From Oleomonas cavernae (GTDB lineage: Bacteria; Pseudomonadota; Alphaproteobacteria; Zavarziniales; Zavarziniaceae), in NCBI RefSeq assembly GCF_003590945.1, contig NZ_QYUK01000011.1, forward strand, positions 3,876,909 to 3,940,908: DNA of 64,000 nt, given 5' to 3'. The position numbers and the translations under genes are program-made. The notes under the pieces are model-generated. The model searched no databases and was not told the DNA's origin. It worked only from the letters and a program-made list of their open reading frames with translations. Positions 24,137-27,151 of the stretch are shown in pieces. How positions within the stretch are numbered: position 1 is the stretch's first letter; each line of letters begins with the position of its first letter.

Positions 24137-24384
24137 CGCTTGGGTCCCGGCTGATTCTGACGATGGCCAGACTCTAAGCGGATTTGCCCCCGCGGGCACC
24201 AGCGGTTCCCGGCGCACGGGAGCCATGCGGCCCTGGCCCCGGTCGCAATCAACCCCATATTTGAATCAATTCGCCCAAGATTCGCATGCTGCCCTGCAAC
24301 ATCGCGAATTTCCTTGCCAATTTGGCATGGCAGGTATGAATGTTATCGTCAGCGTTCAGGATTTAGATAAAAGTTGCGACTGGG

Positions 24385-25005
24385 ATGAAGCGTCACGAAG
24401 AAATCAAACAATCGATCATCGCGGCCGCCATGGATCGCCTGCAGCGCTATGGCTATGGCAAGACCACGATGGCCGAACTGGCCGCCGATTGCAAAATGTC
24501 GGCCGGCAATCTCTATCGCTATTTCATGTCCAAGCTCGACATCGCCGAGGAAATCGCCCGGCAGAGCTTCATCCGCACGGCCGAGCAGCTCCGCGAGGTG
24601 GTCCGCCGCCCCAATGTCACGGCGATCGAGCGCCTGCGCTTCTTCCTGATGGAACAGATGGCCATCACCTTCCACGAGCTGGAGAAGGAGCCGCACTGGA
24701 TCGAAATGGCCGAGATCGTCGCGCGCGAGCGCCCGCACGTCTCCAACGAGGGCCTGGCCCGGGTCCGCTCGCTGATCGCCGAAATCCTGGCCATGGGCAA
24801 TGCCACCGGCGAGTTCGACATCGACGACGTGAACTTCACCGCCGAGATGATCCAGTCCGCCACCATCAAGTTCCGCTACCCGCAGCTCTTCTCGAGTCTC
24901 GACCTCGACAAGCTGGAACGGGAAGCCGCCGGCGTCATCGACCTGCTGATCAACGGCCTGCGCGCCCGGCCCAAGGCCCTGGCCAAGGCCGGCGAAGCCG
25001 CCTGA
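24385..25005 (+). CDS. TetR family transcriptional regulator
   Basis: 206 residues. The N-terminal helix-turn-helix is seen as RLQRYGYGKTTMAELAADCKMSAGNLYRYF (residues about 17-48; read in parts), followed by a ligand-type helical domain. No divergent partner gene is near, since the preceding 250 bp belong to the yciI upstream region. It stands just before repeat A2 and the small-peptide array. The target is unknown. Confidence 0.85.
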   Translation: MKRHEEIKQSIIAAAMDRLQRYGYGKTTMAELAADCKMSAGNLYRYFMSKLDIAEEIARQSFIRTAEQLREVVRRPNVTAIERLRFFLMEQMAITFHELEKEPHWIEMAEIVARERPHVSNEGLARVRSLIAEILAMGNATGEFDIDDVNFTAEMIQSATIKFRYPQLFSSLDLDKLEREAAGVIDLLINGLRARPKALAKAGEAA

Positions 25006-25029
25006 AGCGCCCTCCGCATCTCAATAAAG

Positions 25030-25137
25030 AGCCCCCTCCGCCGTCGGGGGAGGGGGTTGGGGGAGGTGGGACGCACCATGTCGAGACCAGGCTCCCCTCC
25101 TCACCCAACCCTCTCCTCTCGAGAGGAGAGGGCTCTC
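25030..25137. repeat. Dispersed palindromic repeat, family A copy 2
   Basis: Begins AGCCCCCTCCGCC and ends GAGGAGAGGGCTCT. Internal GGGGGAGGTGGG and CCTCCTCACCCAACC give further pairing. Shares its second half closely with the copy at 49611-49750 (TCCTCACCCAACCCTCTCCT in both). It lies directly after the TetR gene. Confidence 0.7.
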
Positions 25138-25286
25138 TTTGACTAGACATTGGTCTATGTGACCTGGGCGCCGCAGCCGCCGGCGCAGCCCGCACCTGCC
25201 CTATTTCCGCCCGATTCCGCCGGCTAAGTGCCCTCAGCCCCATGTTGCAATGCAGCAACGACCGGGCGGAAACGATGACTGACAAA

Positions 25287-25314
25287 TTGTCTGTTCACAA
25301 TCCGCCCCTATATT
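25287..25314 (+). promoter_or_regulatory. Candidate promoter of the small-peptide array
   Basis: TTGTCT (25287-25292), 16-bp spacer, TATATT (25309-25314). It lies inside a 570-bp gap without a conventional gene and would give a leader of about 260 nt before the first peptide. A second AT-rich candidate is TTGCAG (25488-25493) with TATTTA (25510-25515); bases 25440-25530 are strikingly AT-rich for this genome. Confidence 0.4.
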
Positions 25315-25383
25315 AAGGGTGCTGGTTCACCAATCGTAACGCGCCGGGGCGATTCTTCCGGTCTGTGACGGGTGAACAAAAAT

Positions 25384-25404
25384 CGCTTCTTCCATCAAGA
25401 AGCG
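25384..25404 (+). promoter_or_regulatory. Leader hairpin upstream of the small-peptide array
   Basis: Perfect 8-bp stem CGCTTCTT (25384-25391) / AAGAAGCG (25397-25404) around the loop CCATC. It has no T run, so it looks like a leader structure rather than a terminator. Confidence 0.4.
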
Positions 25405-25582
25405 CAGAAACGCTGCCGTTCAGGGCGGGACCCCCAGGAAAATAGTGAACGATCTCAAAAAAATTTACAAAAGTTGGCATTTGCCTCTTGCAGTAAATAA
25501 TTTTTGGGATATTTATTATTCATCGTTCAGCGGTGATGGCCCCACGGGGACCCACCGGAACGATCTGGTAGGAGGGATGGAC

Positions 25583-25702
25583 ATGAGGACCATCGCAAAC
25601 ATCGCGACGAAGCTGAGCTTCTATCGCATCACCACGCTGGTGGTACTGACCTACAGCGCGGCCGCCCTGGTTCAGATGACCGGCAACGTGCTGGCTGTCT
25701 GA
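25583..25702 (+). CDS. Small membrane peptide 1 of tandem array
   Basis: 39 residues: a short charged start, then one hydrophobic segment RITTLVVLTYSAAALVQMT. AGGAGG at 25570-25575 lies 7 nt before ATG 25583, so this start fits better than ATG 25577 or a GTG start at 25445. It aligns without gaps from the conserved Arg to the Tyr nine residues later with the four peptides that follow. The most diverged member. Function unknown; predicted single-pass inner-membrane or membrane-associated. Confidence 0.6.
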   Translation: MRTIANIATKLSFYRITTLVVLTYSAAALVQMTGNVLAV

Positions 25703-25730
25703 GGAACGAGACAAGAGACGGAGAGCCGAG

Positions 25731-25844
25731 ATGCGCAAGCTGGCCTTCAACGAGATTTTCACCCGATTCGCCACCATCGCGGTCGTGGCTTATGCCGCCG
25801 CCCTGGTGATCGACACCGCAAGCCACCTCGCCGCGATCGCCTGA
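25731..25844 (+). CDS. Small membrane peptide 2 of tandem array
   Basis: 37 residues (MRKLAFNEIFTRF, then TIAVVAYAAALVIDT). It keeps the N-terminal phenylalanine plus Arg, the Arg-x8-Tyr spacing and the A-L-V core of its neighbours. A GGAGAGCCGAG ribosome binding site precedes ATG 25731. It starts 148 bp after peptide 1 begins. No homologue is recognised. Confidence 0.65.
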   Translation: MRKLAFNEIFTRFATIAVVAYAAALVIDTASHLAAIA

Positions 25845-25882
25845 TAAGGCGGGCAGCGAAACTCAAGACAAGGAATACGACG

Positions 25883-25999
25883 ATGACCAAGCTGAACCTG
25901 AACACCAACACCCTCTTCACCCGTCTGGCGGTTGCCGCGGTGGCCCTCTACGGCTTCGCCCTGGCGCTCCAGACCGTCCAGAACGTCGGCCTGGCCTGA
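25883..25999 (+). CDS. Small membrane peptide 3 of tandem array
   Basis: 38 residues: polar start MTKLNLNTNTLFT, then RLAVAAVALYGFALALQT and the ending VQNVGLA. With peptides 4 and 5 it forms a nearly identical trio (RLAxAAVAxYGxALxxQTxQNVGLA pattern). AAGGAA lies upstream of ATG 25883. Spacing from peptide 2 is 152 bp, the same as to peptide 4. Function unknown. Confidence 0.7.
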   Translation: MTKLNLNTNTLFTRLAVAAVALYGFALALQTVQNVGLA

Positions 26000-26034
26000 C
26001 GGCCGGCCCGAGCGGAACCCGAAAGGTTATGGTG

Positions 26035-26136
26035 ATGTCGATCGAGAACCTCTTCAGCCGCCTGGCCCTGGCCGCGGTGGCGATCTACGGCGCGGCCCTG
26101 GTCTTGCAGACCGCGCAGAACGTGGGCCTGGCGTAA
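26035..26136 (+). CDS. Small membrane peptide 4 of tandem array
   Basis: 33 residues (MSIENLFS, then RLALAAVAIYGAALVLQT, ending AQNVGLA). GAAAGG at 26021-26026 fits ATG 26035 better than the in-frame ATG at 26029, which would add two residues. It ends with TAA. Differences from peptide 3 are conservative, which suggests selection on the peptide. Function unknown. Confidence 0.68.
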   Translation: MSIENLFSRLALAAVAIYGAALVLQTAQNVGLA

Positions 26137-26173
26137 CCAGCCAGGCTCCTAGAATTCGGGAAGGAACAGAACC

Positions 26174-26290
26174 ATGAACACGCTGCGCCTGAACACGACC
26201 GACCTGTTGAACCGTCTGGCGATCGCCGCGGTTGCGCTCTACGGCCTCGCCCTGGCCGTCCAGACTGCGCAGAACGTCGGTCTCGCCTGA
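26174..26290 (+). CDS. Small membrane peptide 5 of tandem array
   Basis: 38 residues (MNTLRLNTTDLLN, then RLAIAAVALYGLALAVQT, ending AQNVGLA). GGAAGGAACAG precedes ATG 26174. The sequence just after each of copies 4 and 5 also repeats (a CCAG...GAATTC stretch near 26137-26157 and 26294-26310), showing that the duplicated unit includes the spacer. An intrinsic terminator follows 125 bp later. Confidence 0.7.
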   Translation: MNTLRLNTTDLLNRLAIAAVALYGLALAVQTAQNVGLA

Positions 26291-26414
26291 TCGGCCAGAC
26301 TCTCGGAATTCAGTTGGCCTGAGAGGCCAAACTTCCCCGGAGGGTCGGCCGCCCAGTTGTGGCCGTCGACTTTCCACCCTGAGGTCCGCCTGCGTATCAC
26401 GGCGGACCGAACTC

Positions 26415-26455
26415 GGCCCGGCCTCGGCAGCAATGCCGGCGTCGGGCCTTTCTTT
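26415..26455 (+). terminator. Intrinsic terminator closing the small-peptide array
   Basis: GGCCCG (26415-26420) pairs with CGGGCC (26443-26448), and the stem is followed by TTTCTTT (26449-26455). Inner bases GCCTCGGCAG / TGCCGGCG give added pairing. It sits just before the convergent PIN-toxin stop codon. Confidence 0.75.
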
Positions 26456-26456
26456 G

Positions 26457-26870
26457 TCAGCTCGCGAATGGGTTCAGGATGGTCACATTCAGCCCGGCGA
26501 GATCGCGGACATTGCGCGTGACCAGAGTCATCCCCCGCGCCTTGGCCGTGGCGGCAAGCAGGCCGTCGATCGCCGGCACGCTGCGGCCCGTGGTCAGTTG
26601 CCCCCAGACTTCGCCGACCGCCTCGTCGATGGCCAGAATACGACCGGCGAAAGCAAGTTTCACCGCGTCCAGCCAGGTTTCGAGCGCCTGCGCCCGAGCG
26701 GCATCGCGCGGGCGCAGGCGCTCCACCCCGCGGCGGATTTCGCCTACCACCAGCACGCTGAGATAGAGGGCGTCGTCGTCGATCGTCGCGTACCAGGCGG
26801 CGAGGCCGGGATCCATGGCCGGGCCCTTGCGCAGTTCCGAGATGATGTTGGTGTCGATGAGGTAATTCAA
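26457..26870 (-). CDS. PIN domain toxin, VapC family
   Basis: 137-residue RNase toxin of a type II pair. Acidic metal-site residues are in YLIDTNIISEL, VVGEIRRG, PAIDGLLAATA, and VTRNVRDLAGL. The 4-bp overlap with the upstream antitoxin gene supports co-translation. VapC-type toxins cut tRNA or rRNA; the target is not predictable here. Confidence 0.9.
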   Translation of the reverse strand: MNYLIDTNIISELRKGPAMDPGLAAWYATIDDDALYLSVLVVGEIRRGVERLRPRDAARAQALETWLDAVKLAFAGRILAIDEAVGEVWGQLTTGRSVPAIDGLLAATAKARGMTLVTRNVRDLAGLNVTILNPFAS

Positions 26871-27151
26871 AACTCGACATCCCGGGCCGGCGCCGGATCA
26901 CGCTCCAGTTCAACACCATCGAGTGGTGCCGAGGCCAGCAGGGCCTTGAGCCCCGGCCTTGCCCCCAATCCGAAGTGGCTGCGCAGGATTTCCCGCGCAA
27001 GGCCCCCGCGGGCGGGATCGCACAGCGCGTCGGCGACACCCCGCAGCAACGGCGCGTCACCGGCGGGCACCCGCAGTTCGACCCGCGCGATGCCTTTCAG
27101 CTTCAATCGGCGCCGATGGGCGGCCAGGGCGTTCTTTTCAATTCCGGGCAT
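26867..27151 (-). CDS. Antitoxin partner of VapC-type toxin
   Basis: 94 residues: MPGIEKNALAAHRRRLKLKG is the DNA-binding-like start I recall from antitoxins paired with PIN toxins in alphaproteobacteria. The C-terminal part (LDGVELERDPAPARDVEF) is acidic and likely wraps the toxin. It overlaps vapC by 4 bp. The 14-bp palindrome just upstream is a fitting autoregulatory site. Confidence 0.8.
   Translation of the reverse strand: MPGIEKNALAAHRRRLKLKGIARVELRVPAGDAPLLRGVADALCDPARGGLAREILRSHFGLGARPGLKALLASAPLDGVELERDPAPARDVEF

Follow-up and report, generated by a model that had tools for sequence, protein, structure and literature searches.

A conserved, predicted promoter/operator region with a probable PhaR-type box precedes a tandem array of small hydrophobic peptides in Oleomonas cavernae

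The 64-kb window analysed here, i.e. the whole stretch of DNA under study, derives from the 5.6-Mb genome of Oleomonas cavernae (a Zavarzinia-type bacterium) and contains an array of five tandem ORFs of 35-39 codons that encode related hydrophobic peptides. The leader upstream of this array raises the question of whether it acts as DNA, as a structured RNA or as a translated extension of the first peptide. The peptides matched no family above the cut-off in Pfam or NCBIfam and nothing in PHROGs; peptide 3 gave sub-cut-off matches only, to NapE (E 0.037) and TorE (E 0.019), both far below the cut-off. In the mainly open-access literature on Zavarzinia, including that on Zavarzinia and hydroxybutyrate, none of the titles listed concerned the array leader or the peptides, and no published test of a link between this leader and PHB regulation was found there. 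A profile built from 15 peptides identified the family in 5 of the 7 genomes that represent the order (own genome included), and a survey of 387 genomes sampled from the class recovered these same five, every one of which belongs to the window's own family. Tandem sets of three to five related hydrophobic peptides (33-39 aa) are present in four Zavarzinia (25583-26290 in the window), and one recognised array member is present in the sister genus. The gene neighbours of the array change between genomes: a TsaD-like ORF (named by eye) lies downstream of it in G004 and G006, and in the window two overlapping ORFs on the minus strand (26457-27151), located 3' of the array, resemble a toxin-antitoxin pair with a PIN toxin of the VapC type.

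When 60 genomes, the own one among them, were searched at the DNA level, the end of the leader and peptide 1 were matched in G001, G002, and G004 besides the own genome; a match in G018 spanned only 29 bases and is trivial. The array of G006, which represents a sister genus of the same family, was added by the search with the peptide profile. Because the same peptide array is thus found in three other Zavarzinia and in one sister-genus genome, the leader could be examined through its conservation. The alignment of 'four Zavarzinia' used below consists of the window, G002, G004, and G001; no array was found in G003 and G005 (74-75% complete), which were hence left out of the leader comparison. 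Among genome contigs, 25 stretches fit the pattern and 2 were confirmed, both from Zavarzinia, and among viral contigs 48 stretches fit the pattern and none was confirmed as a relative; no relatives were found on the plasmids searched. The interval between the TetR-family gene and the array (25006-25582) begins right after the end of that gene. A GC-rich interspersed repeat, distributed genome-wide with many partial copies, occupies about 25027-25140 (a 577-base query gave 51 matches in the genome, its own position among them). The terminator-like hairpin that follows the TetR gene (25109-25132) is made up of the right half of this repeat. The leader proper comprises 25142-25582.

The conserved stretches of the leader, which differ from those first listed, are 25243-25257, 25365-25379, 25443-25473, 25487-25530, and 25570-25582 (Table 1). 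Outside these islands, 19 of the 121 columns between 25320 and 25486 are invariant in the four Zavarzinia (5/45, 13/63, and 1/13), and in the 5' UTR 17 of 39 columns are invariant. As a yardstick, the TetR gene of these four genomes has 38 invariant fourfold sites out of 79, a level that is clearly exceeded by the core of the proximal promoter candidate (P2) and only moderately exceeded by boxes A and B. The islands look like DNA elements rather than structured RNA or a hidden gene, and, as judged from its sequence conservation, the leader is a real, conserved region of predicted promoter/operator type.

Table 1. Features of the array leader and its surroundings in the 64-kb window. Invariant columns refer to the four Zavarzinia.
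Feature	Position	Strand	Remarks
PhaR-type palindrome 5' of the TetR gene, TGCTGCCCTGCAACA	24287-24301		Second palindrome of this type
TetR-promoter dyad	24337-24358		Degenerate in the window: TGAATG-N10-CGTTCA
TetR-family regulator gene	24385-25005	+	PF00440 and PF17935 above cut-off
PhaR-type palindrome of the array, TGTTGCAATGCAGCA	25243-25257		Exact match to TGYTGC-N3-GCARCA, 29 bp before P1
P1 candidate, TTGTCT-N16-TATATT	25287-25314	+	Genus-style CCTA at -10
Box A, GTGAYNNRTGAACA	25365-25379	+	10/15 columns invariant
8-bp hairpin	25384-25404		5/21 columns invariant, near background; considered incidental
Box B, TGAACGAT	25446-25453	+	Forms a dyad with box C, of which it is the left arm; final three letters differ among relatives
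A-tract, AAAAAAATTTACAAAA	25457-25472	+	UP-element-like (presumed function); 18/31 columns invariant over 25443-25473
P2 candidate, TTGCAG-N16-TATTTA	25488-25515	+	34/44 columns invariant over 25487-25530
Box C, ATCGTTCA	25522-25529	-	TGAACGAT on the minus strand, just 3' of the P2 -10
Ribosome-binding site, AGGAGG	25570-25575	+	12/13 columns invariant over 25570-25582
Peptide 1	25583-25702	+	39 aa, one hydrophobic helix (by eye); start assigned to the second ATG
Peptides 2-5	25731-25844, 25883-25999, 26029-26136, 26174-26290	+	Related hydrophobic peptides

The island at 25487-25530 consists of the core TTGCAG-N16-TATTTA followed by ATCGTTCA, about 60 nt ahead of peptide 1. TTGC(A/G)G and TATTTA are separated by 16 bp at all four Zavarzinia arrays, and the G006 array has TTGAAA and TATTTA with a 17-bp spacing; promoter-like hexamers spaced by 16-17 bp, i.e. 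a predicted promoter with a weakly matching -10, are thus present at five of five arrays. The core of the relatives reads CTTGCAGTGAATAAAT..TGAGATATTTATTATTCATCGTTCA, from which the window is slightly different, and that of G006 is CTTGAAAGTGAATAAAATAGGAATTATTTATTGTTCATCGTTT, in which TATTTA ends 57 nt before the start codon. The end of the core, TTTATTNTTCATCGTTCA (one mismatch or fewer), has a single occurrence in each array-bearing Zavarzinia genome (four in all), namely the one at the array. A consensus promoter scan does not call P2, TATTTA being a poor match to TATAAT. The simplest reading of the core is a promoter with an operator across its start. P2 would then drive the array, with a predicted transcription start near 25522 and a 5' UTR of ~60 nt. 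Two other promoter candidates were rejected: TTGGCA-16-AATAAT (25474-25501), the best scan match of the two pairs, has a -35 that is not conserved, and a sigma-54 promoter was dismissed on account of its spacing (by eye).

The sequence-only reading had pointed to a hexamer pair, TTGTCT-N16-TATATT, as well as to a perfect hairpin and a very AT-rich block, and had proposed from these a second promoter or a regulated long 5' UTR. All three features are present: the pair matches the consensus at 9 of 12 positions, the 8-bp hairpin has a 5-nt loop, and the block at 25440-25530 is 71% AT and falls where the AT content of the window, taken over 91 bases, peaks (5 of 63,909 stretches of this length in the 64 kb reach its AT value, all of which overlap it). 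As a chance control, 25142-25582 was shuffled 1000 times with dinucleotide composition preserved. A perfect hairpin of at least 8 bp was found in 46 shuffles, at least one promoter-like pair of the same quality in 161, and at least two such pairs in 14; the real segment has two. The hairpin and a single promoter pair are thus unremarkable by themselves, and the occurrence of two pairs is unusual. Conservation separates the two halves of the earlier proposal, since the conserved P2 core and a distal promoter skeleton kept in all four Zavarzinia support a second promoter or regulated region, and the structured 5' UTR finds no such support. The hairpin was rejected as a functional structure because it is not conserved and the folds of the relatives between boxes A and B differ; these box A-to-B intervals fold with z-scores of -1.2 to -2.1 in the four genomes. 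It was also rejected as a minus-strand terminator, such sites being at chance level in 24200-26480 (2 terminator-like sites versus 2.3 expected).

A riboregulatory leader, in which transcripts from P1 would fold the AT block (25441-25530) into a long hairpin controlling translation or termination, can nevertheless be argued from the window itself, where the AT block has a folding z-score of -5.10 (0/200 shuffles as good) and the whole leader one of -3.65; the whole leader of G002 reaches -4.06. The arms of the box B-C dyad, moreover, are paired in 93.8% of cells, as against 36-58% when the arms are slid. These signals fade on comparison. The whole-leader values for G004 (-1.96; 8/200 shuffles) and G001 (-1.41; 17/200) are borderline or ordinary, and those of the AT block are borderline in G002 (-1.67; 11/200) and G004 (-1.95; 10/200) and ordinary in G001 (-0.49) and G006 (-0.04). 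The predicted folds differ between genomes; 93 of 500 shuffles reach the same 93.8% dyad pairing, and the single pair with a two-sided change is matched by 414 of 500. The covariance check that had been suggested for homologous leaders returned an RNAalifold covariation term of +0.25, which does not speak for a conserved fold, although with four sequences this is a weak test. All 37 Rfam matches in 24900-26500 are below the gathering score, and the bases concerned are the same as those needed for P2. The z-scores may also be inflated, because joined AT-rich and GC-rich segments can behave in this way against shuffles. An RNA role of the leader is unlikely on these grounds, weak as the four-sequence covariation test is, and the specific hairpin mechanism appears very improbable.

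The leader had further been suggested to be translated, from an in-frame GTG at 25445, as a 46-residue extension fused to peptide 1. Such a frame is indeed open in the window (85 codons, of which 46 precede the ATG at 25583), and this is the one point in its favour. In all four relatives the peptide-1 frame is interrupted by stop codons, which lie upstream of the ATG by 29 codons in G002, 15 in G004, 34 in G001, and 25 in G006, so that no frame is conserved, and the conserved AGGAGG lies 7 nt before the ATG at 25583. We give this extension almost no credence. Translation of peptide 1 should start at 25583, with AGGAGG ending 7 nt ahead, rather than at 25577. This ribosome-binding site is kept in the four Zavarzinia, in which ATGGACATG is also preserved, and G006 has a counterpart of the second ATG only.

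Boxes A, B, and C share the word TGAAC, which is inverted in box C. In the 64 kb (both strands), TGAACGAT occurs twice, both times in the array leader and in convergent orientation, i.e. as boxes B and C. Box C is identical in all four Zavarzinia and has the counterpart ATCGTTTC in G006. Relative to the ATG of the window, the TGAAC of box A is at -210, that of box B at -137, and the inverted box C (GTTCA) at -58. The B-to-C distances are 79, 78, 79, and 79 bp and the A-to-B distances 73, 74, 73, and 84 bp in the window, G002, G004, and G001, respectively, the additional 11 bp in G001 corresponding to about one helical turn. The window leader contains GTTCA at three further places (-290, -258, and -165), none of which has a counterpart in the relatives. 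With their near-fixed spacing, boxes A, B, and C are operator-like and may bind a repressor, possibly the neighbouring TetR; box C is located where a bound repressor would block P2.

That these boxes are operators of the adjacent, autoregulating TetR, which would repress the array (perhaps through a DNA loop joining boxes B and C), fits the two-promoter model and is possible, although we rate it as somewhat doubtful. In its favour, the likely -10 of the TetR promoter is covered in Zavarzinia by GTGAACGTTATGTTGAGCGTTCA or a close variant, which has TGAACG in common with the array boxes. A single TetR ortholog is present in all seven genomes (79-88% identical in the six others), and the window and G006 share the order TetR-array. 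Against it, TetR does not adjoin the array in G001, G002, and G004, G006 lacks boxes A and B, and the array leader has half-sites only, no full TetR dyad having been found there. The perfect dyad, TGAACG-N10-CGTTCA, occurs solely at the TetR promoter of G002 and G001, and G000, G004, and G005 have it there with one mismatch; genome-wide, one-mismatch matches number 4-16 per genome per strand (0-4 in the backward control). Control of the array by TetR is accordingly rated as no firmer than a possibility. The region upstream of tetR (24230-24385 and its orthologs) is itself conserved in Zavarzinia, with a PhaR-type box, a CTTGCAAATTTG-like stretch, and the TGAACG-N10-CGTTCA dyad.

The distal promoter candidate (P1), about 200 bp further upstream than P2, is kept as a skeleton. 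The relatives have TTGTCA, TTTTCA, and TTGTGC with CCTAGCCT, CCTAGGCT, and CCTACCGT, respectively, 16-17 bp apart, and TT(G/T)T...CCTA is common to all four Zavarzinia; apart from CCTA and the palindromic box preceding it, the P1 segment is weakly conserved. Positional counterparts of this palindrome are TGTCGCATTGCAGCA in G001 and CGTCGCATTGCAGCA in G002, each 29 bp before TTGT. The distal box is thus present in three of the four Zavarzinia, i.e. as an exact match in the window, in the TGYYGC form in G001, and one mismatch away from that form in G002. In the pattern search, no PhaR-type box was among the matches listed at the arrays of G004 and G006. The upstream half of the leader (25142-25360) might accordingly be an inert spacer left by rearrangement, with P2 alone being of importance; this would agree with the low conservation outside the box and CCTA and with the arrays of G004 and G006. 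However, three genomes retain the box at this 29-bp spacing although the upstream gene differs between them (neighbours named by eye), and strict TGYTGC-N3-GCARCA boxes are rare, with three in the 64-kb window, two of which precede TetR and the array. The spacer explanation is therefore rather unlikely in our estimation. At TetR, the upstream palindrome has exact counterparts in G002, G004, and G005 and one with a single mismatch in G001; none was seen in G006, and the corresponding region of G003 ends at a contig edge.

What this palindrome stands for is indicated by its occurrences elsewhere in these genomes. The relaxed pattern TGYYGC-N3-GCARCA is common and mostly GC-rich (53 matches on both strands of G000 and 5 in the backward control, among the matches listed), and with so many matches per genome it proves little by itself. 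We picked 16 regions among the matches listed, mainly those with strict or A/T-centred palindromes. Five of these precede genes of poly-hydroxybutyrate (PHB) metabolism, namely four phasin genes (in G000, G002, G004, and G006) and one PHB depolymerase gene (L107, in G006); in the other 11, the palindrome is within an ORF or in the vicinity of genes of other kinds. A Pfam run on one protein each from 8 of the 16 loci identified Phasin_2 in three of the four phasin loci and a PHB depolymerase in L107, and the G004 phasin (L100) was named by likeness. Three of the four phasin genes have a strict box that precedes CTTGAC by 5-6 nt, and another TGC-rich stretch lies downstream. The strict boxes of G006 are situated 3' of CTTGAC at the phasin promoter and 3' of TTGACG at the phaZ promoter. 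Strict palindromes also precede an ORF that matched nothing in Pfam (L093) and the genes of a STAND-type ATPase (L096), a condensation-domain protein (L102), and a gamma-glutamyltranspeptidase (L104), and that of L102 is the exact word of the array palindrome. The phaR gene (PF07879) has one match above the cut-off in all seven genomes, and no box was found in the flanks of phaR itself at the five loci, out of seven, that were inspected. From the phasin, PHB depolymerase, and phaR genes, PHB production in Zavarzinia is inferred. Since the same type of palindrome precedes phasin and PHB depolymerase genes, the distal palindrome of the array is probably a PhaR-type box, a designation that refers to the type of site rather than to a target of PhaR. 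Upstream of groES in the own genome (L120), ATGCTGCACTGCC...GCGGATTTCATTG resembles the tetR upstream region (by eye) and is perhaps a further PhaR-type site.

Taken together, these data favour, with a fair degree of probability, a leader that acts at the DNA level as a two-promoter regulatory region, in which P2 would be governed by the operator-like boxes and P1 would receive a PhaR-type input. Because P1 is tied to the PhaR-type palindrome, PHB status, as sensed by PhaR, is probably a second input, added at P1 if PhaR binds the distal box. A more elaborate version, in which PhaR frees P1 and tetR and a TetR-type repressor then loops boxes B and C at P2, so that peptide production is confined to the storage state, is speculative and strikes us as quite unlikely; if true, three to five tandem membrane peptides of ~38 aa, members of an order-restricted family, would be produced upon PHB granule formation. 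The two-promoter reading replaces a vague 'structured leader' with specific sites and, if the PHB link holds, ties the peptide family to the PHB storage regulon, which would be the first functional clue to these uncharacterised, lineage-restricted tandem membrane micropeptides.

Several known systems offer comparisons. Riboswitches, attenuators, and other structured 5' leaders resemble the array leader in that a long AT-rich inverted repeat precedes the first gene, but the array leader differs from them in having no shared fold, no covariation support, and no Rfam family at the gathering score. The groES promoters of the group were compared when an RpoH-type reading of CTTG...TATTTA was weighed; at six of the eight loci inspected they have CTTGACAG...CCTAA or CCTAG, and P1 shares with them the CCTA style of -10. 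P1 is unlike them in its -35, which is TTGT and not TTGAC, and in having no CIRCE-like repeat (by eye). The autoregulatory dyads of TetR proteins overlap a -10, and the same arrangement is seen at the neighbouring tetR gene, where TGAACG-N10-CGTTCA overlies the likely -10 and from which the half-site recurs in the array leader; the array leader differs in carrying separated half-sites (B and C about 80 bp apart) and no full operator. A further comparison is that with PhaR. According to the excerpted text of the respective reports, PhaR motifs have the core YGCRNYGCR in S. meliloti (PMC12542648) and GC-N3-GC in B. diazoefficiens (PMC10888616), and the latter report also cites control of phaP and PHB depolymerase promoters by PhaR (AniA) in P. 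denitrificans and R. sphaeroides. The array box departs from the phasin and phaZ boxes in its position, starting 340 bp before the ATG rather than 81-231 bp (five promoters), and in being a single box, 29 bp before the -35 and absent in one of the four Zavarzinia, whereas three of the five phasin/phaZ boxes are 5-6 nt before CTTGAC. In sequence, the array palindrome fits both the core YGCRNYGCR and GC-N3-GC, as far as these are given in the excerpts, and it is of the same type as the palindromes at the group's own phasin genes, being identical to the phasin box of G004.
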